Shown here one piece after another: positions 85 to 43,864 of a stretch of DNA of 43,974 nt. Source of the DNA: a virus; the IMG/VR virus record IMGVR_UViG_3300035698_002397, positions 1-43,974 of that record. One strand, written 5' to 3'. Every line of letters starts with the position of its first letter. The stretch's first letter is position 1. The notes under the pieces are model-generated. The model was not told the origin of the DNA. It saw nothing but the letters and a program-made list of their open reading frames with translations, and did no database searches. The position numbers and the translations under genes were made by a program.

Positions 85-118
85 GGGGACGGGGCTGGGG
101 GTAAAAATGGGGGCTGGG
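85..118 (+). other. G-quadruplex-type motif
   Basis: Runs of 4, 4, 5, 5 and 3 G are separated by loops of 2, 2, 7 and 2 bases, which fits the usual G-quadruplex pattern (three or more G, loops of 1-7). It is on the plus strand, i.e. the 5'-end strand at this terminus. A matching motif lies on the minus strand at the other end. Confidence 0.6.
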
Positions 119-173
119 ATACATACCCACCGAACCGCAGCGGCAAAACGAAACATAGGTTCACCAAAGATAT
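112..173 (+). repeat. left arm of imperfect terminal inverted repeat
   Basis: Read on the minus strand, 173 down to about 112 matches the plus strand from 43801 to about 43864. The first 24 bases (150-173 against 43801-43824) are a perfect match. After one mismatch comes TTTTG in both arms, then a diverged stretch, and both arms return to CCCAGCCCC. The two copies are about 43.6 kb apart in inverted orientation near the two ends of the window. Confidence 0.8.
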
Positions 174-366
174 CAGGGATATGAACGAGCTGGGATTTGG
201 GGCGGGTGTGGAAACGGCGTGGGGAATGGGTGGGGAATGTGAATGGTGGGGTTTGGTATGGGGTGGGAAGGGCGTGGGGTGTTCGGGTGGGTGATTGTGC
301 CGCCACGAACAAGACCGCGCCGTGTGGGCGAATTTAAGCCCCATCGCCCATACGAACGCTGAACAC

Positions 367-400
367 AAAAAAGCCTCGCATGGCGTGAACCGTGCGAGGC
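367..400 (-). terminator. rho-independent terminator of the left-end gene
   Basis: A perfect 8-bp stem (GCCTCGCA / TGCGAGGC) with a 12-nt loop is followed, read leftward, by TTTTTT. It lies 23 nt past the stop codon of the leftward gene at 423-890 and would end that short transcript. Confidence 0.85.
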
Positions 401-422
401 GAAACTTGTCTATGTTGCGGGA

Positions 423-890
423 CTAGAACTGAATATTAATTCCAAGGCTTTCAGTCTCTGCCCGTGCTTTGTCATCAATCGCCTTAAGTTTGGCCGCGGC
501 GGCGTCAATCTGTGCAACCATCTCAGGCGCGGCCTTAGCATATAACGCGTCGAGATACTTGTTGCGGTCTTCCGCGTCCTTGTAGCTCTGTTGCTTGGCG
601 GCATGTGGGCGGATAACATTCCGACGATACTTAGCCAGCGGGTCACGGGTCGAGGTTGCGCGGCCAATGTCACCGGACTTAATCGCCTCCATGGTAGCAA
701 GCACAATCGCGGCCTTTTCTTCAGCGTCTTTCCCACCAGTCTTATCATTGACAAAGCGTTGGAAGCCATATGCGAATATCTTAGCCGCCGCCGCCGCGTG
801 AATGTCACCCAGCTTAACTTGTGTTACCTTACCACCAACTGTACATTCAACTGTTGGCGCATCTAATGTGATTGTGATTGTATTTGTCAT
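423..890 (-). CDS. conserved phage hypothetical protein, single-gene leftward unit
   Basis: A 155-residue acidic/Ala-Lys-rich protein, probably mostly helical, starting MTNTITITLD. A short beta-type N-terminus (ITITLDAPTVEC) is followed by Ala-rich helices. It is reminiscent of small phage proteins with an 'aYGF/LAYGL' segment (here FAYGFQRFVND, about residues 39-49), but no function is known to me. The start is supported by GGAAGGA about 7 nt upstream. It forms its own transcription unit: a putative promoter with TTGACA at 958-963 lies upstream and a strong terminator downstream, while all neighbours to the right run the other way. An abundantly made early protein is a guess. Confidence 0.8.
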   Translation of the reverse strand: MTNTITITLDAPTVECTVGGKVTQVKLGDIHAAAAAKIFAYGFQRFVNDKTGGKDAEEKAAIVLATMEAIKSGDIGRATSTRDPLAKYRRNVIRPHAAKQQSYKDAEDRNKYLDALYAKAAPEMVAQIDAAAAKLKAIDDKARAETESLGINIQF

Positions 891-934
891 TGTGTGTGTC
901 CTTCCGAGACATATGGCGTGATTGCCATGTATGA

Positions 935-963
935 ACGTTAACTCAGCCCAATGCCAATGTCAA
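935..963 (-). promoter_or_regulatory. putative sigma70 promoter for the leftward left-end gene
   Basis: On the minus strand, a perfect TTGACA (-35, plus 958-963) is followed by a 17-bp spacer and TAACGT (plus 935-940). The -10 box is poor (3 of 6), so the call rests mainly on the -35 box, the spacing and the position 45 nt before the start codon. Confidence 0.45.
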
Positions 964-980
964 CAGCTAAATTCACATTC

Positions 981-1040
981 ATCGAAATTAGTTTCAAGTA
1001 ACTCCGCTTCATCGAAATTAGTTTCAAGTAACTCCGCTTC
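981..1040. repeat. two perfect tandem copies of a 30-bp unit
   Basis: Positions 981-1010 and 1011-1040 are identical. Each starts ATCGAAATTAG and ends CTCCGCTTC. They lie in the divergent control region between leftward and rightward transcription, so they may be protein-binding sites or origin iterons. This is an inference from position only. Confidence 0.85.
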
Positions 1041-1053
1041 ATTCAATTCGTGC

Positions 1054-1110
1054 GCGTCACCAGCCGCTTCCCTCCACGCCTTCCCACTGCGTCACCAGCC
1101 GCTTCCCTCC
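1054..1110. repeat. two copies of a 22-bp direct repeat
   Basis: GCGTCACCAGCCGCTTCCCT plus CC occurs at 1054-1075 and 1089-1110, 35 bp apart start to start (just over three helical turns). It directly follows the 30-bp tandem repeat. The role is unknown. Confidence 0.8.
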
Positions 1111-1294
1111 TTCCCGCAGCGGTGAAAAGCGACTTCGACGGTACGGCCCCCTCGGACCCCGGCCAGGACCTTTCAGAAAATGTGAGTAATTTTTACGTTC
1201 CTTTCCAGCTGTATAGGTGTGCGTGGTGCAGATGGAGGTACAGCCATACTTGGAAGCGCGATCCGCGACCATACCCGACCTTGCAAATCGGCCC

Positions 1295-1323: not shown

Positions 1324-1347
1324 TGGTAAACGAAAAGGAGTATGGCC

Positions 1348-1956
1348 ATGTCGCTCGGTCTCGAAATTATGAAAGCAGCACGGAACATCGGAGTTCCCAC
1401 TCATGACGTGAGCATCACAGGCACACGCTCACTCACGCCCGAAGATGCCGAGACGTTCATGACTACGGACCGACCAGCCGCTGATCGTTCAGTGCGCCGC
1501 ATCCGCACTCGCCACCATGAAGCCGCTAGGCTGATGGCGTCCGGCTCAGACGATATACAAATCTCAGTCAATACGGGTCTCAGTACAAGTACGATTCGTG
1601 TACTACGCAGTGACCCTGCCTTCGCGAACCTACGCGACCACTATAACTCCCTGCGCGATGATAAGTTCGAGGTGATGCATGAACGCCTAGCCGCGCTGGG
1701 AAAGGATGCAGTTTCGGAGCTGCACGATCGCCTTGAGGACAAACCGGAAGATTTCGAAATCTCCGACCTCATCAAGCTTACAACTACCACAGCTGATCGG
1801 ACTGGGTTCGGCCCAAGTTCCAGCACGAATGTGAACGTTACAGTCGGTATCGCAGAACGCCTACAGGCCGCACGCGAGAACGTGAAGAAAATGAAAACTA
1901 TAAACGCCGAGAACGCAGAGAACGCCCTGAGCGCGGAAGGAAACAATGATGACTAG
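1348..1956 (+). CDS. probable terminase small subunit
   Basis: A 202-residue protein directly upstream of the packaging ATPase operon, the usual place for the DNA-recognition subunit of terminase. A helix-turn-helix-like stretch is seen at about residues 53-95 (AARLMASGSDD then ISVNTGLSTSTIRVLR), followed by a helical region and a polar tail rich in Asn/Glu/Ala, typical of small terminases. I chose the ATG at 1348 rather than 1342, because AAGGAG at 1335-1340 is 7 nt from the former and only 1 nt from the latter. The family assignment is by context and HTH, not by a signature motif, so another DNA-binding regulator remains possible. Confidence 0.65.
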   Translation: MSLGLEIMKAARNIGVPTHDVSITGTRSLTPEDAETFMTTDRPAADRSVRRIRTRHHEAARLMASGSDDIQISVNTGLSTSTIRVLRSDPAFANLRDHYNSLRDDKFEVMHERLAALGKDAVSELHDRLEDKPEDFEISDLIKLTTTTADRTGFGPSSSTNVNVTVGIAERLQAARENVKKMKTINAENAENALSAEGNNDD

Positions 1957-2284
1957 TCTAGTAAACATGGCTAAGACCACTGCCGAGATCAAAGAAGAAG
2001 AGAAACCCTACGAGCGCACTGCGGACAAATATCCGTGGGGGCTTGAGCTGCATCTCGGTACTGAGGAACTTACCAAGCTGGGCATGACTACGCTCCCACC
2101 TCTTGGGTCTCAGCTTAACCTTATCGCCACTGTCGATGTGGAACGTCTCAGCGAGAGCGATGACGCGGAAAGCGGCGTGAACCGCTCGGTAACATTGCAG
2201 ATCACTGACATGTCGCTGAGTTCTGAGAATGCGGGCAGTGCGGGCATTGACCCTGATAAGTACTTCGGTGGCGCTGATGTATGA
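1946..2284 (+). CDS. conserved small phage protein, capsid-staple-like
   Basis: A 112-residue protein with the pattern YPWGLELHLG, TKLGMTTLPPLGS and SVTLQITDMSL. I recognise this from small beta-rich phage proteins encoded next to terminase genes, some of which are annotated as capsid staple; I cannot verify that link here. It overlaps the upstream gene by 11 nt and the terminase by 8 nt. GGAAGG at 1935-1940 serves either ATG 1946 or ATG 1949. A later start (MAKTT, 1967) is also possible. Confidence 0.7.
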   Translation: MMTSLVNMAKTTAEIKEEEKPYERTADKYPWGLELHLGTEELTKLGMTTLPPLGSQLNLIATVDVERLSESDDAESGVNRSVTLQITDMSLSSENAGSAGIDPDKYFGGADV

Positions 2285-3755
2285 TGAGCTAATCAGTGAT
2301 CTTGCTGAGTACGCTAACGATCCTCTAGGGTTTGTCTACTGGGCATTCACTTGGGGCGAGGCGGAACTCATCAACTCACCTGGTCCCGAGCCTTGGCAGG
2401 TTGATATCCTCAGCCGCCTTGGTGAAGGCTTGCTCAGCATTGACGAAGCTATTCGCCTAGCAGTGAAGTCCGGTCACGGTATCGGCAAATCCGCGCTGGT
2501 GGCATGGATCATCCTATGGGCTATCTCCACCATGGAAGACACTAAAGGAGTGGTCACGGCCAACACCGAGAACCAGCTGAAGACTAAGACATGGGTTGAG
2601 GTCGCCACTTGGTATCGCCGGTTCATCGGTAAAGAGCTGTTCAAAATGACAGCCACTGCCATGTTCTCGACTGATCCGGAGCACGCAGCTACTTGGCGTA
2701 TCGATATGGTGCCATGGAGCACTAAGAACACCGAAGCCTTTGCGGGTCTACACAACCAAGGCAAGCGCATCCTAGTAATTTTCGATGAGGCCTCAGCCAT
2801 TGACGATCTGATTTGGGAAGTGACCGAGGGAGCGCTGACCGATAAGAACACGCAGATTATCTGGTGCGCCTTTGGAAACCCTACCAAGAACTCAGGCCGT
2901 TTCCGTGACTGCCACGACGGAGGCAAATTCGCCAAGCGTTGGAACAGCCTCACCGTAGATAGTCGCCTTGTATCTTTCACCAATAAAGGGCAGATCAAAG
3001 AATGGGTTGACGATTACGGAGTGGACTCAGATTTCGTGCGTATTCGTGTGCGCGGCCTGTTCCCTCGCGTGGATGAAAACAGCTTCATATCCCTTGACCT
3101 TGCCATCGAAGCCACCTCCCGCCCAATCTACCCTAGCATGGATGAGCCTATCGTCATCGGAGTTGATGTGGCGCGTTTCGGTTCGAATAACACTGTACTC
3201 TACGCACGTCAGGGACGCAACGCTCGCACACTCCCTATCAAAGTCTTTAACGGCCTTAGCACTATCGAAGTCGCTCAAGAGGTTGTGTTGATGATGAACG
3301 AGCTCGGCGCTGCCATTGCCTTTATCGATGAGGGCGGAGTTGGCGGAGGCGTACTAGATAACTGCCGCCACATGCGCATCCCATGCCAAGGCGTACACTT
3401 TGGAGGTAAGGCCACGAACCTGAACCTCGAGCGCGGCGTGAAGTATAAGAATAAGCGGAGTGAAATGTACGGAGCTGTACGGGACTTCCTGAAAGAGGGA
3501 GCGATCCCACTGCGCATACGTGGTGTAGAGATTGAGTTTCCTGAGGAGCTGTCCGGCCCTACCTATTCCCTTAACGAGAAAGATCAAATTGTCCTCGAAC
3601 GAAAAGAGGCCATGGCACGGCGTGGTATTGAGTCGCCCGATGTCGGAGATGCCCTAGCCCTAACCTTTGCTTACCCTGTATCAACTGGGCGTAAAGTGCA
3701 GACCGCTAGAGTTGCTAAGAACTATGACCCATTTGCACTTGAAAGGCTATTATAA
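2277..3755 (+). CDS. terL: terminase large subunit
   Basis: DNA-packaging motor: an ATPase that pumps DNA into the prohead and a nuclease that cuts it. The 492-residue protein shows a Walker A SGHGIGKS (residues 65-72), Walker B VIFDEA (167-172), and a C-terminal RNase H-like nuclease with acidic residues in GVDVARFG (D297), AFIDEGG (D351) and SPDVGDAL (D455/D458). The start at 2277 (MYDELISD) matches the natural N-terminus and has GGTGG upstream. The more upstream in-frame start would run far into the preceding gene. It overlaps the previous gene by 8 nt and the next by 1 nt (TAATG). Confidence 0.96.
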   Translation: MYDELISDLAEYANDPLGFVYWAFTWGEAELINSPGPEPWQVDILSRLGEGLLSIDEAIRLAVKSGHGIGKSALVAWIILWAISTMEDTKGVVTANTENQLKTKTWVEVATWYRRFIGKELFKMTATAMFSTDPEHAATWRIDMVPWSTKNTEAFAGLHNQGKRILVIFDEASAIDDLIWEVTEGALTDKNTQIIWCAFGNPTKNSGRFRDCHDGGKFAKRWNSLTVDSRLVSFTNKGQIKEWVDDYGVDSDFVRIRVRGLFPRVDENSFISLDLAIEATSRPIYPSMDEPIVIGVDVARFGSNNTVLYARQGRNARTLPIKVFNGLSTIEVAQEVVLMMNELGAAIAFIDEGGVGGGVLDNCRHMRIPCQGVHFGGKATNLNLERGVKYKNKRSEMYGAVRDFLKEGAIPLRIRGVEIEFPEELSGPTYSLNEKDQIVLERKEAMARRGIESPDVGDALALTFAYPVSTGRKVQTARVAKNYDPFALERLL

Positions 3756-9016: not shown

Positions 9017-11817
9017 GTGATGACCTTATTCAATTCGCGTTCACAGCGGGTGAGCAATCACCTAAGCTGGAGATGCGCGGTGATTTTGAGAAGTACGGTT
9101 TCGGCCTGAGCCAAGCGCATAACTGGTATGTTGATTTCCATGGTGGACTGAACACACGACCTGGTTTCGAGGGACAAGAGATTATTCAGGACATTGAACT
9201 CGGCGTGAAGCTGATCAAGTTCCAGTTCTCCAACGAACTCAGCAACAGCTATGTCATCATCCTCACTGACGATCGTATTCGGTTTACGCAGTCTGGCGCA
9301 TACGTGCTGGAAGCGTCAAAGACTATCGCGAGCATATCGCAGTCCGCGCCTTACACGGTAACTACTGATGCAGTGCATGGCTACACCACTGATGACATGG
9401 TAAAGATTTCCCTAGCTGGCGATCTGAGCAACGGCAATGATCGAGCTTTTTACGTCGATGTGACTAGCACAACCACTTTCACTCTGCGCGATACGGTCAC
9501 GAATGAAACAGTCCTTGCTGGCGATGAAAGCCTTCTCGGCACTGGCATTGTTGGGCGCGTATATACGCTGGCAAATCCTTATGACGTGGCTGACCTCGCA
9601 TCTCTCCGCAGCTACGGCATCCGCGACACCATTCGCCTAACCCATGGCTCATACCCGATCATGAACCTAACCCGCAGTGGTCATGCATCTTGGGCACTTA
9701 GTGAGGAAACAGTGGCAAGTGATGCGGCACGGCCTGGCACATTAACAATCATCAAATCCAGTACTGGTGATGCGGGCACTATGTTCACAGTCACTGCGGT
9801 ATATACAGACGGAACAGAGTCCGTACCATCCGACATCGCTTTCGTAACCTCAATGGTAGACTACGCATCCACCCTAGGTAGTGTGACACTTAACTGGGTA
9901 CCACTAGCTGGCGTAGCATACTATAACGTTTACCGTTCACTCATCTACTCCGATGATGCTGACCTTAGCGCGGCCAGTGACTTTGGCTTTATCGGTCGAA
10001 GCTACGCTGCACAGTTCACAGATAATAACATCATCCCTGATTTCACAGGCGGCTATCCTCAGCAGTTTAACCCATTCGCTAATGAAGCGATCACTCAGAT
10101 TGATGTTTCCACTATTGGCTCAGGCTATACGAACAGTACAGTCGTGTCAATCTCCACCTCTACGGGATCGGGTTTTGTTGGCTACCCTATCATATCTCGT
10201 GGCGGTGGAGTGGTTGGGGTGAACATCCTCAACGGCGGTAAAGGTTACGCAGCTACTGACACAGTGAACTTCTCCATAGGCTCAAGCGCGGTCGCGTCAA
10301 TCTCACGCAGTCCCGCTACGGGCAACTACCCTGCGATCAGCTCAATCATTCAACAGCGCCAAATATACGCGGCGACTGAGAACAGTCCACTGAGTATCTT
10401 CGGATCACAACCCGGCCTGTTCGATAACTTCGATGTGAGCACGATCACCAAGGCTAGTGACAGTTATGGGTTCGAGATCGATAGTGAAATCGTAGCTCCA
10501 CTACGCCACATTGAGCACATGCGAGGCGGTATGCTGCTGCTCAGCGGTGCGGGTATCTGGCTGCTTAACGGTGGTGATAGCTTCGCTGTATCTGCCACGT
10601 CATCATTTGCCGAGCCGCAAACACGCTTTGGTATCGCTGACATTCCGCCTATCCCAATCGACAGTAACTTGCTATACATTACGGATAAAGAGGGCACGGC
10701 TCGCCTACTATCCTACAGTGACTTTTCCAAGGTGTATGGCGGTCGCGACCTGTCCATTCTCAGTTCGCACCTATTCACGCTGGATAACAAGATCACAGAT
10801 TGGACCTATCAAGAAACGCCTAATCGCTTAGTGTACTGCGTACGCGAAGACGGTGATGGCCTCATCTTCACACTTGAGATTGAGCAAAACATTTTCGGGT
10901 GGACGCCTATCGCTACCTGCGGTAAGTTTAAACAGTTCATCAATGTGCAGGAAGACCGCAAGGATACTGTATACGCTGCCATTTCCCGAGTACGTGGTGA
11001 TAGGACAGTAGGCTACCTTGAGCGCTTGTCTAACTACGATGAGGAAAAAGCTGAGAACGCTATCTGCCTTGACTGCGCAACTGTGATCCGCCCCGAAAAT
11101 GGTACCGGCTCTCTACACTTTTCCGCTGCAACAGGCACTGTCACAATCACACTGCTTACAGGCGCGGTCCCATTCTCATCCGCTGACGTGGGTAAAGTCC
11201 TTCGCGCTAATAACGGTAAGATGATTATCACAGCCTTTGTCAGTACATCGGAACTAACGGCCAGTGTCGTCGATGACATGACCATGCTAGACTTTGAGAA
11301 GACTACGCCACGCGATGTGCTGGAAGGATCATGGTCTATGGTCGCAGGCTCCAGCACAGTCTCCGGCCTATGGCAACATGAAGGCGAAGATGTAACTGTC
11401 CTTGCGGATGGTAACGTGACAACAGGCACTGTGACTAACGGTTCCCTTACCCTGCCCTCACCCGCTTCCATGATCATCGCAGGCATACCATACAAATGCA
11501 CGATCAAAACTCTACCAATGATTATCGATGGCGCAGTCATTCAAGCGCGTCGCAAAGATATCGTAGGCATGGCGGTTAAGGTGAACAACACACGCGGGCT
11601 GAAATACGGCACGGACTTAACCAATCTGTATGAAATTAAAGAGCGCACTAATGAGGCAATGGGTCAAGCTATTCCTCTGCGTACTACCACCGACTATGTA
11701 GCTGTGAAAAGCAAATTCGACAAGCATGGTCAAATGTATATCGTCCAAGATCAACCACTGCCGGCAAGGGTCTTGGGCTTAGTACTGTCAACGGAGATAG
11801 GCGATGATAATGATTAG
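9013..11817 (+). CDS. tail tubular protein B-like / tail nozzle protein
   Basis: A 934-residue beta-rich protein with the N-terminal signature FTAGEQSPKLEMRGDFEKYG and GGLNTRPGFEGQE of podovirus nozzle or DNA-stabilisation proteins. These close the tail and hold the DNA in. A fibronectin III-like segment is seen at about residues 257-315 (TVTAVYTDGTESVPSD, then ITLNW-type and YYNVYRS). Further on come Gly-rich stretches with GSGYT and GGKGYA repeats, perhaps a carbohydrate- or fibre-docking insertion. The ATGA overlap with the adaptor and a weak own ribosome site suggest coupled translation. Confidence 0.85.
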   Translation: MSDDLIQFAFTAGEQSPKLEMRGDFEKYGFGLSQAHNWYVDFHGGLNTRPGFEGQEIIQDIELGVKLIKFQFSNELSNSYVIILTDDRIRFTQSGAYVLEASKTIASISQSAPYTVTTDAVHGYTTDDMVKISLAGDLSNGNDRAFYVDVTSTTTFTLRDTVTNETVLAGDESLLGTGIVGRVYTLANPYDVADLASLRSYGIRDTIRLTHGSYPIMNLTRSGHASWALSEETVASDAARPGTLTIIKSSTGDAGTMFTVTAVYTDGTESVPSDIAFVTSMVDYASTLGSVTLNWVPLAGVAYYNVYRSLIYSDDADLSAASDFGFIGRSYAAQFTDNNIIPDFTGGYPQQFNPFANEAITQIDVSTIGSGYTNSTVVSISTSTGSGFVGYPIISRGGGVVGVNILNGGKGYAATDTVNFSIGSSAVASISRSPATGNYPAISSIIQQRQIYAATENSPLSIFGSQPGLFDNFDVSTITKASDSYGFEIDSEIVAPLRHIEHMRGGMLLLSGAGIWLLNGGDSFAVSATSSFAEPQTRFGIADIPPIPIDSNLLYITDKEGTARLLSYSDFSKVYGGRDLSILSSHLFTLDNKITDWTYQETPNRLVYCVREDGDGLIFTLEIEQNIFGWTPIATCGKFKQFINVQEDRKDTVYAAISRVRGDRTVGYLERLSNYDEEKAENAICLDCATVIRPENGTGSLHFSAATGTVTITLLTGAVPFSSADVGKVLRANNGKMIITAFVSTSELTASVVDDMTMLDFEKTTPRDVLEGSWSMVAGSSTVSGLWQHEGEDVTVLADGNVTTGTVTNGSLTLPSPASMIIAGIPYKCTIKTLPMIIDGAVIQARRKDIVGMAVKVNNTRGLKYGTDLTNLYEIKERTNEAMGQAIPLRTTTDYVAVKSKFDKHGQMYIVQDQPLPARVLGLVLSTEIGDDND

Positions 11818-25218: not shown

Positions 25219-25706
25219 TACAAGGTGGAACAATAAAACACCATATCACAATCTCAACTAAGGCGTGGTGGGTGGTACTGGCGTTACTGGGTTACTTAAT
25301 GTTCAACTCGGATAAGGTGGTTGACATTGTACCTGCAAGCGTGTGGCTAGAAGTGCACTCTATTCATGTGGAGGATGGTGGGAGCAGCCCGAATGATATC
25401 ATCCTCAAAGTGGCCCGAACGATACACCTGCCTTTCGGGGCAGATTGGTTAGTTGAACTTGAGCGTAAGAGGGGCGAACGATATGTGGTCATTTGCTCGC
25501 GGCGTGGTAATAATGATTACAGCACTGATGGCGCATTGCCTGACCCTTTAACTCTGGCTTGGTGGATGGATGACGATACGTGCCACATACCTAAAGGAAC
25601 GTACCGCCTCACCACCCGCTGGGATTTGGCCATCAAGTCAGGCAAGGTGGTACGTGTCATATCTAATGATTTTAATACTCGTTGGGCGCTGCTTCCCCGA
25701 TCGTAA
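25215..25706 (+). CDS. single-TM envelope protein at the end of the lysis cassette
   Basis: A 163-residue protein with a short N-terminal tail, one membrane segment (WWVVLALLGYLMF, about residues 18-30) and a periplasmic-type domain carrying VHSIHVEDGG, VVICSRRGNNDYS, LTLAWWMDDDTC and GTYRLTTRWDL. Three Cys-or-Trp-rich strands look like a small beta domain. I recall similar proteins in lysis regions of other podoviruses but know no function; a spanin-like or inhibitor role is speculative. Its last 35 nt overlap the convergent gene. Confidence 0.75.
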   Translation: MIQGGTIKHHITISTKAWWVVLALLGYLMFNSDKVVDIVPASVWLEVHSIHVEDGGSSPNDIILKVARTIHLPFGADWLVELERKRGERYVVICSRRGNNDYSTDGALPDPLTLAWWMDDDTCHIPKGTYRLTTRWDLAIKSGKVVRVISNDFNTRWALLPRS

Positions 25707-26883
25707 ACGCCAGCCCTACCTTGGGGTAGCTTTTAACCACTATCATACCTGAGTCAACCATCGTCTTGATTATAGTTTCAATCTGGTACGATGGCACTCT
25801 ACCTTGCATGAACCGGATAAGCCCCACTCTTGGCATTGGCTTTCCCTTCTGCCTGATCCCCCACTGTTGCACGAGATGCCAGACATCTTCGATAACCTTA
25901 GCGTCTGAGGTGTCAGCTTTCATGCTGCGGAATATTTCAGGCATATGTGCTTCGGCCTCGATCATCCACTCAAGCGCTGTTTGAAAATCTTGTTCCTCAA
26001 TCACCAATGAATCCGTGCGACTGGCGCAGGCTACCATCATCAACTTTAGCATGTGGGCGGTTCGGCGCGTGTTGTAGTTATATAGCTTCGGGTGGTTTGG
26101 TTCGGGTACACAACCGCCGAGCTGCCATGCGTCAATAGTGTTCGCGGCTTCCTCTGTAAACGTCATGCGACCATTCATTGCTCCGATGCTACGCAGGTCT
26201 TGCTTCATCTCCGTAAATAAAGTCTCATCCTGTTCGTCACCTGCGAATAGACTGCGGCGGCGTAACTCACTAGAGAAGATCAGGAACACACGGGACATAA
26301 AGCCATGGTTCCAAATACCCTCGGGCATACCGGAATTAAGTTGTGCAGGGGTTGTGCCTGCGATGATGTTAATCTGAGGTCGGGCGAGAGAGAATGTGTT
26401 CTTGCCCTCGCCGCCGCGTCTTGACTCACTGTACGGGTGGCCGTCATAGATATCTGTAAGCTTGCCCATCATTGATGAGTCGTATTGGGGTAGCAGCACT
26501 TGCAATTCGTTTGAACAAATCTTGAGGCTGTTAAAGTCTTCGGGCTTCTGCCCTGTCACAGTCAGCGACCGAGTAGCATTGCGCAGGTCATCGATGATGG
26601 AAGCGCTGGATGCGTTGGATGGTGCGACATGGTGCTCAGGTAGACTGCCCCATAATTCGGATATGATTTTGGTAAGGGCTGTCTTGCCTACACCTGGAGG
26701 GGAGATAAGGATTGTATAGAGGTTAGGGTATAGCATGGACTGGCGGGTGTATACTCCGACCCGCCTTTCCAATGCTCCTGCCACGGTTGCAATCGCCGCC
26801 CACTTACAGAATAGAGTGGGGGAAGTTCCGTGTTTAGTGTACTCAACGAAACTGTTAACCCATGACTTAGAGTGTCTTGACAT
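25672..26883 (-). CDS. DUF3987-type replicative helicase/ATPase
   Basis: A 403-residue protein with FVEYTKHGTSPTLFCKW (residues 12-28), LYPNLYTILISPPGVGKT containing Walker A (61-68), and SNELQVLLPQYDSSMMGKLT and INIIAGTTPAQL segments. These are typical of phage DUF3987/primase-helicase-type ATPases found beside DNA polymerase. A winged-helix-like C-terminus (LIRFMQGRVPSYQIETIIKT) may bind DNA. No primase domain is visible. It directly follows the polymerase gene (TAATG-type 1-nt overlap), so polymerase and motor would be made together. Confidence 0.85.
   Translation of the reverse strand: MSRHSKSWVNSFVEYTKHGTSPTLFCKWAAIATVAGALERRVGVYTRQSMLYPNLYTILISPPGVGKTALTKIISELWGSLPEHHVAPSNASSASIIDDLRNATRSLTVTGQKPEDFNSLKICSNELQVLLPQYDSSMMGKLTDIYDGHPYSESRRGGEGKNTFSLARPQINIIAGTTPAQLNSGMPEGIWNHGFMSRVFLIFSSELRRRSLFAGDEQDETLFTEMKQDLRSIGAMNGRMTFTEEAANTIDAWQLGGCVPEPNHPKLYNYNTRRTAHMLKLMMVACASRTDSLVIEEQDFQTALEWMIEAEAHMPEIFRSMKADTSDAKVIEDVWHLVQQWGIRQKGKPMPRVGLIRFMQGRVPSYQIETIIKTMVDSGMIVVKSYPKVGLAFTIGEAAPNEY
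25716..25734 (+). terminator. weak rho-independent terminator candidate for the rightward operon
   Basis: CTACC / GGTAG form a 5-bp stem with a TTGG loop, followed by CTTTT. It lies 10 nt past the last rightward stop codon and inside the end of the convergent gene. The stem is short, so efficiency is doubtful. Confidence 0.4.
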
Positions 26884-28466
26884 TATAGATAATCTCCAAT
26901 GCTCAATGTCTTCAATGATCTGACTTTCTGCTGGCGTTTGCGGTTGTCACCTTTACCAGTCCACTTCACCAACCCATCTGGATTGCCTCGTGGTTTACCT
27001 TCCAAGTCATAATCTACCTCACCCCAGTTCCAACCTATCTTTGCATCGGCTGGGACATTGAACTCTCTGCCACCGACAAGCTGCTGTTTGACTGGTAGGG
27101 TAGCGAGTGCCCAAGGAATGATTTCATCCTCAAGCTCTTCGGGGTATTGGAATAGAAGTGAGTCATGCACCTGACATAAGAATTGAATGGGCTTGCCAAC
27201 GCGCCATAATTGCAGCATACCATGGTTGATCTCATCCGATGTAAGGGACTGAGGCTCGTAAGCAATTGCAGCACGTAGGGTTGTCGGGTCGGTGGCACGC
27301 CCCCAAAATGATCGTTTACGGCCCATCAAAGTTGTGATGGTATGATTGGCTTCCAATTGGTTTTTGCGGTCAATGTGCCATTGGGAAAGGCACGGGAAAG
27401 CGCCAAAATAAGACGATTGAAACGCGTCAATAATCTTGACGGGCATTTTCGTATGTTTCGCCATGGTCCCAGCTGTGCCGAGGTAGTTCGTACCATGCCC
27501 TAGCTTCTTAGAGGTTTGGCGATAGCTGTCCTGCCTGTAGAAAGGTTGCTCAGCGATAAGCCTCGCCGCCTTAATATCTGTCTCATCGTCAGGCCATGCA
27601 AGGTCGCGCCATGTCATCTTGGCTACGGTTGTGTGCAGGTCACCGGACTCGCAAGCATCGAGGTATGAACCAGCGAACTCAGGGCCATGTGACTCCAAGT
27701 AAAGGTTCCAGCAGATCGCGCCAACGTTGCGGCTATCACCCTGCTCTAGATCGATGTTGCAAAGCTTCATGCCTCGGTCTGCTACGAACGCGTCACGTAG
27801 TTCTCGATCGATGTTTTGCATGTTCTTACCAGTACCGAAGTCGGAAAAGGAGGATGACATGCGGCCTGTGTTTGTACCGGCTATGTTATACGAGCAACGG
27901 AAACGATTATCTGCATCGATTGCGGTCTCAAAGAACTGGCGTTTCTTATCGAGGTCACGAAGGGCGAGGATGTGAACGCAGAATACCTCAGCGTAGTAGT
28001 ACTGCTGCAATGTTTCTAGTGCATCACGGTTGGAAGTGGGGGCCATTATACCATGAGCGTTACGCTTGCGGATTGGTTTAAGGTTCAGGTAGTCCACGCC
28101 ATAGAACATACGCTTCACCTGTGCGGGGCTGCGGTAGTTAAACTTGGGGAAGCCATAAGCATCTGCGATCAGCTGAAGGTTACCGTTGATCTTATCGATC
28201 TTGCCTCTGATTTTTTCAAGGGACTGATCACGAATTACATGGTCCATGAGGATACCGCGCAAGTTCATCTCCATCACAGGGCCGCGTAAGGCTAGGGATA
28301 GATCGTAGGTCTTGCGTGTTGTCTCGGTAAGCTGTGAGTTAAGCGCCGAATGTATCTCGTGGGTAAGGCAGCAATCAAGTGCGTTATACACCTGATCTTT
28401 TGTGTCCTGATCAAGCGCAGCTAATGTGCGCTCGTCAAGATCAGCGTTCTGGATTATGTCGGCCAT
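26883..28466 (-). CDS. family A DNA polymerase, C-terminal piece (polymerase domain)
   Basis: A 527-residue replicative polymerase lacking most of its proofreading domain. Motif A is CNIDLEQGDSR (D239), motif B RQTSKKLGHGTNYLG (R316, K320, Y328), and motif C QVHDSLLF (D435, with Ser in place of the usual Glu). The first ~45 residues still contain the Exo III motif YNALD (Y27, D31) that belongs to the 3'-5' exonuclease. The rest of that domain is encoded separately at 29307-30299. The start has AGGTGA 7 nt upstream and overlaps the previous gene by 13 nt, so it is a designed gene start, not a sequencing break. Confidence 0.95.
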   Translation of the reverse strand: MADIIQNADLDERTLAALDQDTKDQVYNALDCCLTHEIHSALNSQLTETTRKTYDLSLALRGPVMEMNLRGILMDHVIRDQSLEKIRGKIDKINGNLQLIADAYGFPKFNYRSPAQVKRMFYGVDYLNLKPIRKRNAHGIMAPTSNRDALETLQQYYYAEVFCVHILALRDLDKKRQFFETAIDADNRFRCSYNIAGTNTGRMSSSFSDFGTGKNMQNIDRELRDAFVADRGMKLCNIDLEQGDSRNVGAICWNLYLESHGPEFAGSYLDACESGDLHTTVAKMTWRDLAWPDDETDIKAARLIAEQPFYRQDSYRQTSKKLGHGTNYLGTAGTMAKHTKMPVKIIDAFQSSYFGAFPCLSQWHIDRKNQLEANHTITTLMGRKRSFWGRATDPTTLRAAIAYEPQSLTSDEINHGMLQLWRVGKPIQFLCQVHDSLLFQYPEELEDEIIPWALATLPVKQQLVGGREFNVPADAKIGWNWGEVDYDLEGKPRGNPDGLVKWTGKGDNRKRQQKVRSLKTLSIGDYL

Positions 28467-29306: not shown

Positions 29307-30299
29307 TTAGTCCTCCTTTTTGGTTGTGTCCTTATTGGCTCGCATGAACTTCCATTGAGGCTCATGAGAATATAATGAACCGAGGAAGCCCAAGCCCTTT
29401 TCCATTTCGGGCTGGAGTGCGTGCTGCATTAGCATCGTATCCTCGGTTGCGTTTGGTAGGGCAATGCCGTACTCCTTCCAGAGATAGGTCATGTCATAGT
29501 TAAAGTTTTGCCCTACGATCTTCTTAGCGTTGGTACACCAGCGGCGTACATATTCCCACGCTTGTAGTTCTTCTGTGGCTGTGTCCCAATAGTTCCTGCT
29601 CATCTTCTTGTGTGTGAAGAACGGGACTACGATTGCGAACTCAGGTGAAGGGGCGAAACCTACGCATGTGATCTGCGGTGTCTTGGTCTCGATGTCGATG
29701 CTCAGTAAGTCTGAACTGAGGATGCGATCATTAACTGCGGCGAGGTCATCGAGTGTGGGGTTGATCCATAGCTCACGACGAGGGCGGATGACGTCTGGGT
29801 ACTCCGCTTCACGCGCACACTTGGCAAAGTCTGACTCGATCACAGGACGCAGCTTGAACTCGGACATGACTGAACGCGGTGAGTATGTGGCGATAAGTTT
29901 GCCGAACTCAGTGGCGATCGGACTGCCGCGATACTTACGCAGAGAACGTTCGGAGGTTAGCAGCCAGAGTGGGATTTGCCCAAGGCCTATGATAAGGTTA
30001 GGAGAGATGGTAAGGAGTTGCTCCTTAGTCTCGATCAAGTCTTGTTCGTACTGGGCCAGCACATATTTGTTTGTCATCACTGCGCGTGAGTTAGCAATGC
30101 CCAGTGATTTGGGTCCGACGAATGAGAACACTGAGCTGGCGGCTTTCTTGAACACAGGTATTACTGTGACGTCAGCCATGTCAATGCCTTGCCTCTCGCA
30201 CATGCCCTTGATCATACGGCCTGAACCGTCAGCCAATAGTTCCTCGGCATCTTCGTCGCCACGGGTTTGGTGCTCGGTGAGAATTACAATACTAGTCAT
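29307..30299 (-). CDS. 3'-5' exonuclease piece of split family A polymerase, with UDG-like N-terminal domain
   Basis: A 330-residue protein. Residues 1 to about 145 look like a degenerate uracil-DNA glycosylase-superfamily domain (VILTEHQ..., SGRMIKGMCERQGIDMADVT, PNLIIGLGQIPLWLL) without the usual catalytic GExPG. Residues about 185-330 are a DEDD exonuclease: Exo I SIDIET (D202, E204) and Exo II GQNFNYDMTYL (D269), then EDTMLMQHALQPEMEKGLGF. It stops at EPQWKFMR...KKED before Exo III, which is at the start of the polymerase gene 841 nt further on. The halves presumably assemble. The start overlaps the upstream gene by 8 nt. Confidence 0.9.
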   Translation of the reverse strand: MTSIVILTEHQTRGDEDAEELLADGSGRMIKGMCERQGIDMADVTVIPVFKKAASSVFSFVGPKSLGIANSRAVMTNKYVLAQYEQDLIETKEQLLTISPNLIIGLGQIPLWLLTSERSLRKYRGSPIATEFGKLIATYSPRSVMSEFKLRPVIESDFAKCAREAEYPDVIRPRRELWINPTLDDLAAVNDRILSSDLLSIDIETKTPQITCVGFAPSPEFAIVVPFFTHKKMSRNYWDTATEELQAWEYVRRWCTNAKKIVGQNFNYDMTYLWKEYGIALPNATEDTMLMQHALQPEMEKGLGFLGSLYSHEPQWKFMRANKDTTKKED

Positions 30300-30776: not shown

Positions 30777-32084
30777 CTAGGACTCACGACCCTTCCATGC
30801 GTCAACAGCTGCGGCGTAGAACTCAGGGCTTTTCTCAATGCCGAGTGCATCTTTGGCTCCAGCTTTAAGTGCGGATAGGACAGCGTTACCACTGCCACAT
30901 GTCGGGTCGAGCATCAATGTCGTGCTGTCGATATACATCTCCATGAAGTGATCGAGCATTGCGACAGGCTTCTCACTCATGTGCATGACTTTAATGTTCG
31001 AGCTGCCCACGGTGTTAGCTTTCATCTTAGCTATGAAGCGATCGCCTCGGATGCAGTGAAAGGCAGTTTCATAGATGCGGCGTGGCTGACGTTTGGCATC
31101 AGGCGCAATACCCTTGTTGTCAGTCTTGTGCCAAACCAGTGGGAACGGTGATACTATCCAGCCCATCTGTTCAAGCGCTGCCTTAGTCTCAGTATAGAAG
31201 TCCATGCTGAACCAGAACATTAAGTGTGCGTCAGGTGCGATGATCGTGTTCATGTTATCTGCGAGGGCTGCGATGAGTGCCCAGTATACATCGATACCGT
31301 CCTCGTAACTTCCGAAGTTCTTACGTGCGGACTGGTCGGAGTCTTGCATGCCCACGCCGTATGGGAAATCGCAGTGGATGAAGTTGAAATGTGCGCCCGT
31401 GTATGTCTTGGCCCACTCGGTGAAGTCAGCGTTGATCAATGGGACCTCGCCCTCTACCATTGGGGCAGGGATAACCACGCGCTCAGGTGGAAGCTGCAAG
31501 GCTGCGGGTGCGACAATGCTGCTGATCAGGTCGGCGATCTCGCTCGTCTCTTCATTGCCCTCGCGGTTGTTCTTGCGTTCAACAATACTCTTGGCGACGG
31601 AAATCTTAGGCGCCTCGATAACTGCGGTGTTGCCCTCGGCGATCTCGTTTGCAATGCTGAGCCAGTTGCGACCCGTACGATCAGTCACCCCGATCTGCGC
31701 CGATGTCTTAGCTACGTTCCAATCCTTCTGCTCTGCGCCAAGGAGTTCGTGCATACGTTTGAAAGCTGACACTTGGTCCTGCCAAGGCAGGTCAACGCGC
31801 TTGATGTTTTCTTCTAGCTCGATAAGCTGTAGCTCGTTACTGCCTAGGTCCTCAAGGAAGTGGACTGGGATATCTGTCCAACCGAGGTTACGCATAGCAG
31901 TAAGGCGGCGTTCACCTGCAATGAGTGTACCGCTTCGTGTAATGACTGGGTTGTTAATGAGGCCGACGTTAGCGATAGAGTGCATCAAGGACTCGATATC
32001 TTCTAACTTACGGCGCTGGCGAGTGTCGCGCTTAACCACTATGAAATCTGATTTTACTACGCCGTGGCTGTTCTTCTTGGTCAT
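30777..32084 (-). CDS. ParB-domain / DNA methyltransferase fusion
   Basis: A 435-residue two-domain protein. Residues 1 to about 120 are a ParB/Srx-like nuclease domain with GLINNPVI (41-48), GERRLTA (57-63) and EENIKR (91-96), followed by a helical KorB/HTH-like linker (AQIGVTDRTGRNWL). Residues about 205-435 form an N4/N6 amino-methyltransferase with CDFPYG (238-243, a DPPY variant) ahead of the SAM-binding LDPTCGSGNAV (about 392-402), i.e. beta-type order. No cognate restriction enzyme is seen, so self-protection or gene control is likely. It is the first gene after a strong terminator. Confidence 0.9.
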   Translation of the reverse strand: MTKKNSHGVVKSDFIVVKRDTRQRRKLEDIESLMHSIANVGLINNPVITRSGTLIAGERRLTAMRNLGWTDIPVHFLEDLGSNELQLIELEENIKRVDLPWQDQVSAFKRMHELLGAEQKDWNVAKTSAQIGVTDRTGRNWLSIANEIAEGNTAVIEAPKISVAKSIVERKNNREGNEETSEIADLISSIVAPAALQLPPERVVIPAPMVEGEVPLINADFTEWAKTYTGAHFNFIHCDFPYGVGMQDSDQSARKNFGSYEDGIDVYWALIAALADNMNTIIAPDAHLMFWFSMDFYTETKAALEQMGWIVSPFPLVWHKTDNKGIAPDAKRQPRRIYETAFHCIRGDRFIAKMKANTVGSSNIKVMHMSEKPVAMLDHFMEMYIDSTTLMLDPTCGSGNAVLSALKAGAKDALGIEKSPEFYAAAVDAWKGRES

Positions 32085-40051: not shown

Positions 40052-40066
40052 TTGGAACGTGCACAC

Positions 40067-40933
40067 TCATAGTGCATCCCTCCAACCGATAAAGGCAGGG
40101 TGACGAGGTCGGCCATGCGTACCGAGGCCCTTGAACTCGTAGGTGAAGGTTCGGCCCACGTACTTGTCAGGGTTGGTCCAGATTTCCTTACGTTGCTGGG
40201 AGGTGAAACCAGTGCCTACCTCGAACTTCATCCCATTAGCTTCGTGAGTGACGGACAGTGCGCCCATCTCATTCGCACTCACTTTACCTGCCGCTTCATG
40301 ACTGCGCTTCTGCTTTCCGGTCTCGTCGAGGAACGGTTCGTTGTGGTTGCGGCATAGCTGAGACATGCCTAGCACCACGCCCTCGGCTCGATCTTTGCCT
40401 ACCTTGCGCATGAGGTAATGCTGGTTCTTAGTGCTTCGGCCCTGCTTGTATGGGGCAGAGGCTCGGCGCAGGACCAGTCCTTCATGACCCAGTGCCATTG
40501 CAATCTCATACATTGCATGGACTGCTTCAATATCTTTCAGCTCATGTGGGTAGATCGGGATGACCCATGAGGGCAGATCGCCAGAGCACTCCAGATCGCG
40601 CAATGCTTCAACCCTTGCCTCGTACTTATCAGGCATACCGGTGAAGAGGTCGAACGGACGGAACTGGAACTCCGGCTTACCGCTTTGCGTCATCACTGCG
40701 CTTTGTGTCTCTTGGAACGTTCCGGCTGTGATCTCACCGTCAAGTCCCGCAGGTAAGGTGTTGATCATATCACGAATATGCTGGTTTGGGATGGGCTTGC
40801 GGGTACGAGTAACTGCGCCGATGCTTTGTGTCATGCCGCGCACTCCGTCGAACTTGAACGTGCCCCAGAGTGGGAAGGTTAGCTTACTCTCATCATAGTT
40901 GCAGGCAAGCGTAGGGTTAAAGTTAATATTCAT
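40067..40933 (-). CDS. ATP-dependent DNA ligase
   Basis: Seals nicks in replicated DNA. The 288-residue minimal ligase has motif I KFDGVRG (adenylated K27), LDGEI (64-68), PFDLF (93-97), EGLVLRR (motif IV, 151-157) and YLMRKVGK (motif V, 173-180). The C-terminal part carries an OB-fold pattern with GRTFTYEFKGLG. The size fits T7-like and other phage ligases. It overlaps the upstream gene as ATGA, with GGAG upstream. Confidence 0.93.
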   Translation of the reverse strand: MNINFNPTLACNYDESKLTFPLWGTFKFDGVRGMTQSIGAVTRTRKPIPNQHIRDMINTLPAGLDGEITAGTFQETQSAVMTQSGKPEFQFRPFDLFTGMPDKYEARVEALRDLECSGDLPSWVIPIYPHELKDIEAVHAMYEIAMALGHEGLVLRRASAPYKQGRSTKNQHYLMRKVGKDRAEGVVLGMSQLCRNHNEPFLDETGKQKRSHEAAGKVSANEMGALSVTHEANGMKFEVGTGFTSQQRKEIWTNPDKYVGRTFTYEFKGLGTHGRPRHPAFIGWRDAL

Positions 40934-41283
40934 TGGTCGTTCTCCAGTAGGGATTTGAGGAATGTGATTTCTTCTGCCGCGAGCGCCTCGAAATGGGACT
41001 GCGCTGTATCAATCGTCACTGATTCATTTTCATATGTGCGGTTCAGCTCACTGATTAGCTCGTAAGGAGTGCCATGGCAACCTACCTGCCCTGTACGTTC
41101 GGCCACAGGACAACCGAGGCAACATGATATGAACGGCTCCACTTTCTTCGTGCCGTTCGAGTGAAAGCGCTGACACAATTCGCATGAGGCCGTGCTTAGT
41201 TGCACCTCACCGAAACTATGCTTCAGTTTCTTCTCCCATTGCCTGATACTTCCCTCCAGCGCGTCTTTAGTTGCCTCATCCAT
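40930..41283 (-). CDS. conserved small Cys-rich phage protein
   Basis: A 117-residue protein with CELCQRF (C34, C37), CCLGCPVAERTGQVGCHGTPY and a helical C-terminus. The CPV..RTG...C.GTPY pattern recurs in phage proteins of unknown role, and the Cys pairs suggest a zinc knuckle. AAGGA lies upstream. It overlaps the ATPase gene by 8 nt. Confidence 0.75.
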   Translation of the reverse strand: MDEATKDALEGSIRQWEKKLKHSFGEVQLSTASCELCQRFHSNGTKKVEPFISCCLGCPVAERTGQVGCHGTPYELISELNRTYENESVTIDTAQSHFEALAAEEITFLKSLLENDQ

Positions 41284-42502
41284 TCTCTTGTCCTTTCATG
41301 AACTGCTCGACCGAATATGTGTGGTCCAGCCCTTTGTTTTCATTCCATAACACCTCGACCGCATCGGCCATATCGTTTGGCGTTATGCCTGTGATTGTAT
41401 TGTCCGCCTTGTCACGAGCGAATGCTACACGAGCTGCACGGTCTGGAATACTTGCCGCCATCGCGCCGCTGAGGATATGGTGGAACTTCATCGGCCCGCC
41501 CAGCACCTTATCGTCCTCATACATCGCTTGCACTGCGCGGCGAGCTAACAGGGCGGGGTCGAGGCCGTTTATCGGAAGCCTCTTGAGACCTCGACGAATG
41601 ATCTCATGAATGGCGGCGCGATCAGGCATCTTGATCTCCACCTTGAACTCGCAACGCCCATCACGCAACACCGCCTGATCCAGTTCTTCCATGCGGTTAG
41701 TGGCGAGGAGAACGAACGCGCCGCACTCATCTACCCCATCCATCGCGGTCAGGAACGATGCGACTTGTGAGTCCTCGTACGAGTATGTAGCACGGCGGCG
41801 GCTCTTGCGGTTAGGCAGCAATGTCTCCGCCTCGTCGATGAAGATTAGAAGCGGAACGCCTGCGAACTGCTTATATTCCCTTGCGAACTTGAACAAAGCG
41901 TTGATGGTCTTCTCAGTCTCGCCCACGAACTTACTTTGCACCGAACCTGCGGTGACGAATAGGTAAGGCACCTCATCCTCCTTCGCGAGTTCGGCTAACT
42001 TTCCAGCCACGGCCTTTGCGAACATTGTCTTACCACATCCTGGAGGACCGTAAAGGGCTGCGCCCTTTGGCACACTCCTGTTGTAGTGGGCGTAAAGTTC
42101 AGGGTTTGTCATTGCGCCCTCAATCGCATCTTTCAATTCGCCTAGCGCCTCATCCTGCCCTACGACCTGATCCCAGCTTCCAGCCTTAGCCGCGCGCATG
42201 AACTCCGCAAGTGCTTCGGGAGGCGTTGGGGTAGTAGGCTTGTCTTCTTGCTCCTCCATATGGGGTGAGCCGAAGTCAGGGGTGAATGAGTCAACGTTTC
42301 TGAACAGCGACTCATTCACCTTGTGGAACGCCGCCACTTCACTCATTCTGCGCTGCAGGCCCACTTCCGAGGCAATGGCCTCCTGACGCGCTCTGTGGTA
42401 ATGCTCCGCCGCGCTCTGCCTTCTGGACGGGCCGGTCAGTTCTCGGCACTGTTCCTGCGCTGCGAGCATCCTCGCATTGTACGCGTTTTCTTTTTTACTC
42501 AT
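41276..42502 (-). CDS. AAA+ ATPase of the Cdc48/FtsH/proteasomal type
   Basis: A 408-residue protein. A helical, charged N-terminus (1 to about 95) precedes one AAA module: GPPGCGKT (152-159), a pore-loop-like KFVGETE (191-197; F192), LLIFIDEAE (218-226), sensor LLATNR (265-270), and LRDGRCEFKVEI (279-290), where one of the two expected arginine fingers is replaced by Phe. This is the unfoldase type rather than a clamp loader. There is no protease domain, so it would remodel a protein. TTG 42514 is rejected, since GGAG falls inside it and serves ATG 42502. Confidence 0.9.
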   Translation of the reverse strand: MSKKENAYNARMLAAQEQCRELTGPSRRQSAAEHYHRARQEAIASEVGLQRRMSEVAAFHKVNESLFRNVDSFTPDFGSPHMEEQEDKPTTPTPPEALAEFMRAAKAGSWDQVVGQDEALGELKDAIEGAMTNPELYAHYNRSVPKGAALYGPPGCGKTMFAKAVAGKLAELAKEDEVPYLFVTAGSVQSKFVGETEKTINALFKFAREYKQFAGVPLLIFIDEAETLLPNRKSRRRATYSYEDSQVASFLTAMDGVDECGAFVLLATNRMEELDQAVLRDGRCEFKVEIKMPDRAAIHEIIRRGLKRLPINGLDPALLARRAVQAMYEDDKVLGGPMKFHHILSGAMAASIPDRAARVAFARDKADNTITGITPNDMADAVEVLWNENKGLDHTYSVEQFMKGQENG

Positions 42503-42855
42503 AGCATTCTCCAAATTAATTGTGATAATAACATTGTGCCGCTCGCCCAGCCTGCGGCCGCGAACACTACGCCGAACAGGTTGCCGGTCATATACGTCCG
42601 CACAGTCTCATTACGCGCTTTCCTGAGCCTCGCTTGCTCCGCTTCCACGTCACGCTGCTGGGTGCGAGCATACCCCAGTTCTTTTTTCATGTGGGCGCGT
42701 TTGGTGAGGTTGATGTCGCTATTCAGTGCTTGAAGCACTCGCGCTTCCATGTCCTGTAACTGGAAGATAAGGCTATCACCCCACTCGATCAGGCCGTTAA
42801 GCTTCTGCACGAGTTCTCTCTCCTTCACCATTGCTGGCGTTTCTAGTGTTCTCAT
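42499..42855 (-). CDS. coiled-coil protein with C-terminal membrane anchor
   Basis: A 118-residue protein with a long charged helix (about residues 10-90, Glu/Arg/Lys/Gln-rich with KKELGYARTQQRDVEAEQAR) and a terminal hydrophobic segment LFGVVFAAAGWASGTMLLSQ. This is a tail-anchored layout. It could tether the adjacent AAA ATPase to the membrane, since their genes are joined by ATGA (inference). AGGAGG precedes this ATG. Confidence 0.78.
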   Translation of the reverse strand: MRTLETPAMVKERELVQKLNGLIEWGDSLIFQLQDMEARVLQALNSDINLTKRAHMKKELGYARTQQRDVEAEQARLRKARNETVRTYMTGNLFGVVFAAAGWASGTMLLSQLIWRML

Positions 42856-43337
42856 CGTTGTTTCCTCCTTCCGAGGATATAGTCTGGCCTGCGTTTCGCG
42901 TTCGGTGGGCATACTGCGAGGAGACGCCAGCCCTGATCAAGCATGTCTTGCAGATCCTCGGTGCAAGCGTTTTCTTTCCAAGTGACCTCGTCCATGAGTA
43001 TCAGCCCCATGTCGGGCACTGTGATCTGAACCAGCTCCCCTGTGCGCTTGCCATGGTCATCTTTCAGCTTGGTAAGCATCATTCCCTGACCATAACCGCC
43101 CGCAACCTTCACAGTCCCTTTCGGTGCGTCCTGCATAATCGCGTCCAGCTCTTCCGCAGTCACACGCAGGTCCGGCACAGTATTCCACTGCTTATCTTCA
43201 CCCTCGGCTGGGAGGTCGGGTAGCGCCATGGGCCAAACTTTCCTGAACTCCTCGTACTGTTCACGCGAGTAGCGCCCCATCTTCACCTCTTGCTGCACGT
43301 CATACCAGTCCAGCTGGGCCATGAACATCACACTCAT
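42852..43337 (-). CDS. hypothetical protein with C-terminal QGWRLLAVCPPN motif
   Basis: A 161-residue protein. N-terminal YDVQQEVKMGRYSREQYEEF looks helical; a central beta part contains GGYGQGMMLTKLKDDHGKR; the C-terminus DLQDMLDQGWRLLAVCPPN then RRPDYILGR recurs in phage proteins of unknown role. It overlaps both neighbours by 4 nt. Confidence 0.72.
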   Translation of the reverse strand: MSVMFMAQLDWYDVQQEVKMGRYSREQYEEFRKVWPMALPDLPAEGEDKQWNTVPDLRVTAEELDAIMQDAPKGTVKVAGGYGQGMMLTKLKDDHGKRTGELVQITVPDMGLILMDEVTWKENACTEDLQDMLDQGWRLLAVCPPNAKRRPDYILGRRKQR

Positions 43338-43459
43338 CGCATCAGCCTCTCACAGGTTTGCGTGCTGTGCCGCATCTTGCACGCCTCGTTCCCTTGTCCC
43401 AGCACCTGCGCCGCCCAGAACCCGAATAGCACCACCGCTGCCGCGCCTAGCATTCTCAT
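43334..43459 (-). CDS. micro-gene of 41 codons with N-terminal hydrophobic segment
   Basis: A 41-residue peptide, MRMLGAAAVVLFGFWAAQVL, then a polar tail with two Cys (NEACKM and TQTCERL). The ATG overlaps the stop of the first gene as ATGA, and its stop overlaps the next start as ATGA, filling exactly the space between them. GAGGAAGAGGG precedes it. The N-terminus looks like a signal or membrane segment, and the two Cys could pair in the periplasm. Function unknown. Confidence 0.7.
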   Translation of the reverse strand: MRMLGAAAVVLFGFWAAQVLGQGNEACKMRHSTQTCERLMR

Positions 43460-43671
43460 CCCTCTTCCTCATCCGCAGTTTGCGATACGAATTGAAAGTT
43501 CACCTCATCATCAGCGAACATTTCCGCCCCACTACCCATGATGTACAAGTCACACCTCACATCAGCGCCGAGTTTCTCATCAGCGCGAACCAGCGCCTCC
43601 AACTCCCGTAACGTATATGTTAGCGTCTCAGTCTTAGTGCTTAGCACCACCCGTTTCACTGTTCGTTTCAT
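43456..43671 (-). CDS. first gene of the leftward operon, hypothetical
   Basis: A 71-residue protein, MKRTVKRVVLSTKTETLTYT, with LRELEALVRADEKLGAD and an acidic tail. Family unknown. GGAAGGA lies about 8 nt before the ATG, and a near-consensus promoter is 75 nt upstream. As the promoter-proximal gene it should be among the first made after infection. Confidence 0.75.
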   Translation of the reverse strand: MKRTVKRVVLSTKTETLTYTLRELEALVRADEKLGADVRCDLYIMGSGAEMFADDEVNFQFVSQTADEEEG

Positions 43672-43745
43672 CGTCTATCCTTCCAGTATGTATGTTTCGC
43701 ATAATCCTTGCGTTGCCTCGCCCACCGATGTTGCGTGGTGTGTCT

Positions 43746-43774
43746 ATTTTACCAATACTGGGTATGGCTGTCAA
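43746..43774 (-). promoter_or_regulatory. near-consensus sigma70 promoter of the leftward early operon
   Basis: On the minus strand: TTGACA (plus 43769-43774), a 17-bp spacer, TAAAAT (plus 43746-43751). It stands upstream of the first leftward gene and within 30 bp of the terminal inverted repeat. The predicted leader is about 68 nt. Confidence 0.85.
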
Positions 43775-43800
43775 CGTGTTTCCATATCCTTATATTTCTA

Positions 43801-43864
43801 ATATCTTTGGTGAACCTATGTTTCATTTTGGGGCGTCGTGGCGGTACACCCATACCCCAGCCCC
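43801..43864 (-). repeat. right arm of imperfect terminal inverted repeat
   Basis: Inverted partner of 112-173. The 24-bp core at 43801-43824 is identical to the complement of 150-173. A divergent middle and a shared CCCAGCCCC follow. It lies between the early promoter and the C-rich tract, i.e. at the mirror position of the left arm. Confidence 0.8.

Follow-up and report, generated by a model that had tools for sequence, protein, structure and literature searches.

Gene Layout of the Window

The stretch of DNA analysed here (the window) comprises 43,974 bp and makes up a complete virus record, which is classed as 'linear' and has the gene content of a podovirus. Between approximately 1.3 and 25.7 kb, genes for terminase, portal, capsid, tail and lysis functions are read rightward, while the replication genes form a leftward block that enters from the right end (43.7–25.7 kb), as shown in Table 1. 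The DNA polymerase was assigned to PHROG 17, and its alignments are with PolA-type polymerases of phages; it is split, with two small genes separating the polymerase and exonuclease parts, and the same split was observed in Caulobacter phage Kuura. An AAA ATPase is encoded at 41276–42514 (−), its best annotated phage match being a 'proteasome-associated ATPase' from Brevundimonas phages (44% identical), and the gap before the TerS-like gene (978–1112) contains two short direct repeats with periods of 30 (978/1008) and 35 (1054/1089).

No Pfam match was obtained for TerS, the gene at 423–890 or the small early genes tried, the whole window gave no Rfam match at gathering scores, and a tRNA scan of it detected none. 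Searching solved structures with a four-row TerS alignment returned weak and unconvincing matches, and no relative of the polymerase was found in the sequenced bacterial and archaeal genomes, so that no host could be assigned.

Table 1. Coordinates of the genes and sequence features discussed in the text.
Feature	Position	Strand	Remarks
A15 tract, element centre	25..39	+	sole A/T homopolymer of at least 8 in the window
G-quadruplex-type cluster	80..118	+	between A-tract and right arm
Right arm of inverted repeat	144..173 (perfect core 150–173)	+	sequence match
G-quadruplex-type cluster	260..291	+	outside right arm
Stem-loop followed by T-run	373..400	−	likely terminator of the 423–890 gene; read from sequence
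Small leftward gene	423..890	−	adjoins element; homologs in L003, L005 and L006
TerS-like gene	1342..1956	+	named from position and homology to Kuura's putative small terminase
Terminase large subunit (TerL)	2229..3755	+	
DUF3987 primase/helicase-like protein	25672..26883	−	
DNA polymerase (polymerase part)	26883..28466	−	
DNA polymerase (exonuclease part)	29307..30299	−	separate gene
Sigma70-like promoter, leftward	43746..43774	−	TTGACA-17-TAAAAT, match 11/12; beside left arm
Left arm of inverted repeat	43801..43830 (perfect core 43801–43824)	−	sequence match
G-quadruplex-type cluster	43849..43894	−	inside left arm; holds 10-bp tandem repeat 43862–43889
GC-rich contig tail	43900..43974		possibly a chimeric extension

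The Inverted Repeat and Its Surroundings

The two cores listed in Table 1 are perfect reverse complements of each other over 24 bp, and local alignment lengthens the repeat to 144–182 and 43792–43830 with 35 of 39 positions identical, which bears out the first-pass annotation of this DNA, where a 24-bp core with partial identity beyond it had been described. No other inverted match of at least 16 bp was returned when the entire window was scanned, and the number of 24-bp inverted matches expected by chance in 44 kb is about 3e-6 (estimated as n^2/2 x 4^-24). The same annotation had placed G-rich runs at both ends, with the G-rich strand as the 5′ strand at each, and this also held, as three of the four G-quadruplex-type clusters fall in the two end regions and the fourth occupies an inner site (11444–11463, −).

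Once the ends are joined, the order would be leftward promoter, left arm, C-rich stretch, A15, G-rich stretch and right arm; we refer to this arrangement as the element. The arms are 287 bp apart if the window ends simply abut, a figure that does not fix the true spacer because the contig finishes in ~75 GC-rich bases that could not be placed. This tail is readable as an open frame and has no exact match in IMG/VR.

Contig Ends and Genome Ends

Two relatives, L005 and L006, whose terminases are 76% and 73% identical to that of the window, respectively, carry the homologs of the right-end genes (helicase, ligase and 40930–41283) directly to the left of the homologs of the left-end genes (423–890, 1342 and terminase) on one contig. 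G001, the complete record of L005, runs from the homolog of the gene at 24370 to the homolog of that at 23047, and its ends overlap by 127 bp, of which 126 are identical, giving a circular map that is a cyclic permutation of the window. Overlapping ends (23–144 bp, with 0–7 mismatches) were also observed in 11 of 20 further full-length family records. Five records (G005, G006, G007, G009 and G014) are cut at the A-tract and have the tract at both ends, and two of these five belong to the 11 as well; in four of the five, the end copies are unequal in length or full of errors, and this points to an assembly break at the homopolymer. In the window itself, the cut lies 24 bases away from the A15, and a second contig of the same species, 99.99% identical to it (L003), begins at window position 151, one base into the repeat, where a 24-bp repeat may have stopped short-k assembly. 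The window contig was thus probably cut by the homopolymer and the G-rich repeats and not because the virion DNA ends there.

Since the end regions lie side by side in relatives and G001 is circular, the reading of the inverted repeat as genome ends is probably wrong. The end regions adjoin in these relatives, and the arms would therefore flank a divergent intergenic region, being probably the two halves of one internal control site that was opened by assembly. The circular map is compatible with direct terminal repeats or with headful packaging, and it argues against inverted terminal ends.

It is accordingly very improbable that the arms are true terminal inverted repeats of a linear genome with protein-primed or hairpin-ended replication, which the first-pass annotation had put forward as one possibility on placing the arms at the two ends of the genome. 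Such termini would agree with the position of both arms within 175 bp of the contig ends and with the start of L003 inside the repeat. However, the relatives have circular maps and contigs across the junction, with at least 92 bp of DNA between the arms, and the isolate Kuura has direct terminal repeats. Protein-primed phages generally use a family-B type polymerase, and that of the window is PolA-type. Arms at physical termini would be unjoined on their outer sides, and in the relatives where this could be followed (L005, L006 and G001) they are joined. The arms there sit in the middle of a circular map, the outcome that the first-pass annotation had named as refuting its idea, at the level of contigs in relatives rather than of reads from the window itself. 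A hairpin-telomere phage was dropped as a candidate, as it needs a near-continuous palindrome and the joined window would leave 287 bp between its arms; no protelomerase gene was detected among the window proteins scanned against PHROGs, a set with only some of the small ORFs. Bases 1 and 43974 of this 'linear'-classed contig could not be confirmed as ends of the genome, and among the functions proposed earlier, replication and a packaging signal stay as the leading candidates, while inverted genome termini, along with replication of the protein-primed or hairpin kind, were left unsupported.

Recurrence of the Element in the Terminase Family

At the same place, L005 and L006 carry inverted repeats of other sequence around an A-rich centre, of 26 bp at 116 bp apart and of 37 bp at 153 bp apart, respectively. 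Of 80 terminase loci, 48 were examined and 32 were set aside, mostly with little upstream DNA. Among the 48, which include the near-duplicate pairs L012/L013 and L051/L054, a repeat scoring at least 15 was found within the upstream 5.5 kb at 20 loci, at 15 of them around a homopolymer of at least 8, and such a homopolymer was present at 29. At L010, L063 and L075, a GTT- or GT-rich stretch replaces the A-tract. In a full-genome control (14 family genomes, repeat score of at least 14, gap of 30–420), 24 inverted repeats were detected in total, and 10 of the 14 genomes have one around the homopolymer locus. Exactly one homopolymer locus of at least 8 is present in 12 of these genomes, and in G013 the locus consists of two tracts at a distance of 24 bp; an A-tract with no repeat of score 14 was seen in G012 and G019, and repeats with no A-tract in G021 and G023.

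Across 26 regions picked for an A-tract of at least 7, the 8-mers common to both sides of the tract numbered 379 in inverted versus 167 in direct orientation. Compared with random positions of the same locus, the inverted excess had P < 0.01 in 21 and P < 0.05 in 23 of the regions, and it was not significant in L060, L062 and L073. The inverted 8-mer peak at the element ranks first or second genome-wide in 10 of 14 genomes, and the motif AGCCATA/TATGGCT occurs in 22 of 30 regions, where 2.1 would be expected. The AT skew is −0.26 to the left and +0.23 to the right of the A-tract (27 regions). Aligned with each other within a genome, the arms reach normalised scores of 0.42–1.0, a similarity that is partly by construction because the arms were found as repeats, and between genomes the mean is 0.29 and the maximum 0.60 (45 pairs from 10 genomes). 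The arms hence match inside a genome and mostly do not match across genomes. Together, these data support a real inverted repeat whose layout is kept by selection.

Of 26 regions, 8 reached a promoter score of at least 9 on the leftward side, as against 0, 2 and 0 of 26 for the other three choices of side and strand, and the sigma70-like promoter beside the left arm of the window was also detected in L005 and L006. At L060, L078, L079 and L082, the best promoter-like match lies to the right of the A-tract, the opposite side from that in the window, though about as far away (344–363 bp).

Genes with Which the Element Travels

The DUF3987 protein matched 25 of 50,697 phage records, about 11 lineages by our own grouping, and 12 of the 25 were inspected. 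In ctMlz233, Desulfofustis phage, Mel-JY34, VS-ABTNL-3, ctLwi270 and vir526, a repeat scoring 19–29 is located within the divergent region or next to it, although that of VS-ABTNL-3 counts as weaker because its genome is very AT-rich. All six have the polymerase, exonuclease and DUF3987 genes of the family, and their TerL, portal and MCP are not in common with it. PaP2 and PaMx41 have a repeat in a neighbouring gap, Kuura has an A12 and a weak repeat (score 12), and no clear repeat was seen in the divergent region of Tiera, Aeromonas P5 and the partial EBPR podovirus 3, where the replication genes are present. Conversely, AF, PfDIW6, phiV10 and vir555, which have TerL, portal and MCP in common with the family and other replication genes, showed no repeat around an A-tract.

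Polymerase, exonuclease and DUF3987 genes are present in 14 of 14 family genomes and in 9 of 9 outgroups, the latter partly by construction, as the outgroups were picked for having them, and TerL homologs were found in none of the nine. TerS was detected in three outgroups by one profile, and ctMlz233 was added with a profile of 53 sequences; in all, TerS homologs were picked up by profile in Kuura, Desulfofustis phage, ctMlz233, PaMx41, PaP2 and Tiera, and none was detected in the element carriers ctLwi270, vir526, VS-ABTNL-3 and Mel-JY34 (best E 0.03). From this pattern of presence and absence, the element tracks the replication genes most closely, with TerS in second place. Its inheritance is with the replication genes rather than with capsid and TerL, the exceptions being Tiera, P5 and the partial EBPR podovirus 3.

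Several observations were made in passing. In the methanogen-assigned contig vir526 (L190), which has the same replication genes, the intergenic stretch 404–992 holds TGCATTTT-type repeats arranged in perfect inverted arrays. The 43.6-kb genome of VS-ABTNL-3 (L150) has six copies of AATTTTTA/TAAAAATT, five of which lie at 40665–40790, in inverted groups around a T8. A ParB-like nuclease domain fused to a DNA methyltransferase domain (window 30777–32084, −) has homologs in five of the nine outgroups. Inverted repeats picked by eye at the ends of the PaMx41 record were dropped, as their matches do not exceed 11 and the junction score is 9.

Candidate Functions of the Element

By kind, we call the element a putative origin-like or pac-like site. 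Comparison of the sequences established its architecture, position, recurrence, arm-sequence turnover and co-occurrence with replication genes, and inverted repeated sites were found to flank an AT-rich or A-tract centre. From the inverted sites, the bendable and meltable centre, the early promoter and the co-inheritance with the replisome, we infer that the element is, on balance, probably a replication origin in which inverted initiator sites surround a bending or melting tract. It would be a single internal element, an A-tract enclosed by inverted arms that commonly consist of short repeat units, set in the intergenic region where the leftward operon for replication diverges from the rightward operon for packaging and structure. 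A putative phage initiator would bind the arms, and the T-rich/A-tract/A-rich centre would bend and might melt. The DUF3987 protein, the PolA-type polymerase and the exonuclease would load there as the replisome and start replication, and through the leftward promoter next to one arm, initiation would be linked with early transcription. The genome-wide GC skew, however, lends no support to an origin, since it makes no turn at the element of the sort that a simple bidirectional origin would give, and no initiator was found among the genes examined.

The main rival is packaging, which we consider unlikely: the arms would be binding sites of the small terminase, the A-tract would bend the DNA, and the terminase would cut in or beside the element, start packaging and set the genome end. 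It owes this rank to Kuura, whose reported terminus lies inside its element, and to the frequent co-occurrence of TerS relatives noted above. The direct terminal repeats of Kuura measure 606 bp according to PMC9959647, or 608 bp when the stated genome length is subtracted from the record length, and on the left they begin some 54 bp away from the A12, between the A-tract and the right arm. The TerS-like gene lies 1–2.5 kb from the element in the window family, and SPP1 offers a parallel with TerS sites on either side of the cut and a bent pacL (PMC4856287). Against packaging stand the four carriers of the element in which TerS went undetected, the unrelated TerL of all nine outgroups, the four TerL relatives that do not have the element, and Tiera and PaP2, which have a TerS homolog yet no repeat in the main divergent region. 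It is also rather doubtful that the arms bind a phage regulator controlling the leftward early promoter and a divergent operon. The promoter that adjoins the left arm of the window and recurs in L005 and L006, and its enrichment across the regions, agree with such an operator, but the other side of the window has no matching promoter, what comes after the right arm is a leftward gene with its likely terminator, and the long A-tract at the centre would be left unexplained.

The element may tentatively be regarded, with somewhat less than even confidence, as belonging to a class of phage origin not described before, in which paired inverted arms evolve in concert while their sequence changes from phage to phage. 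By the same tentative reading, a genome-unique A-tract or a GT-rich stretch would form the centre, and the class would occur in a wide range of podoviruses and virus contigs with PolA, exonuclease and DUF3987 genes, whatever their capsid or terminase. No description of this inverted-arm/A-tract element was found in the literature available as open-licence papers. The origins of most podoviruses are unmapped, and if the reading is true, one long A-tract inside one strong inverted repeat would serve as an alignment-free origin predictor in many uncultured phages. The signature would also point to a putative fast-changing initiator, and it would explain why assemblers often cut such genomes here, with the cuts then mistaken for ends.

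Resemblance to Known Systems

Lambda-type origins have iterons in the O gene. The element resembles them in having repeated initiator sites adjoining an AT-rich stretch, but an origin of that type, with direct iterons in an O-like gene, was rejected because the element is inverted and intergenic and no O-like match was found. The closest documented layout is oriS of herpes simplex virus (PMC12543377), where oppositely oriented initiator boxes flank an AT-rich spacer as the arms do in the phage element. This virus is unrelated, however, and in the phage element the spacing is longer and variable, the arms differ between species and the initiator is only putative. The pac site of SPP1 (pacL-pacC-pacR) similarly has two protein-binding segments around a centre, one of them intrinsically bent, but pacL and pacR are described as having no sequence identity (PMC4856287), whereas the arms of the element are near-identical inverted copies. 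Kuura (OQ067476) is alike in gene layout, in the homologs of its replication genes and TerS-like gene, and in an A12 at the same place; it differs in its TerL, portal and capsid, which gave no match, in its weak inverted repeat and in its published direct terminal repeats. An 'oriC' predicted by Ori-Finder between the divergent modules of another podovirus is reported in PMC13299392.
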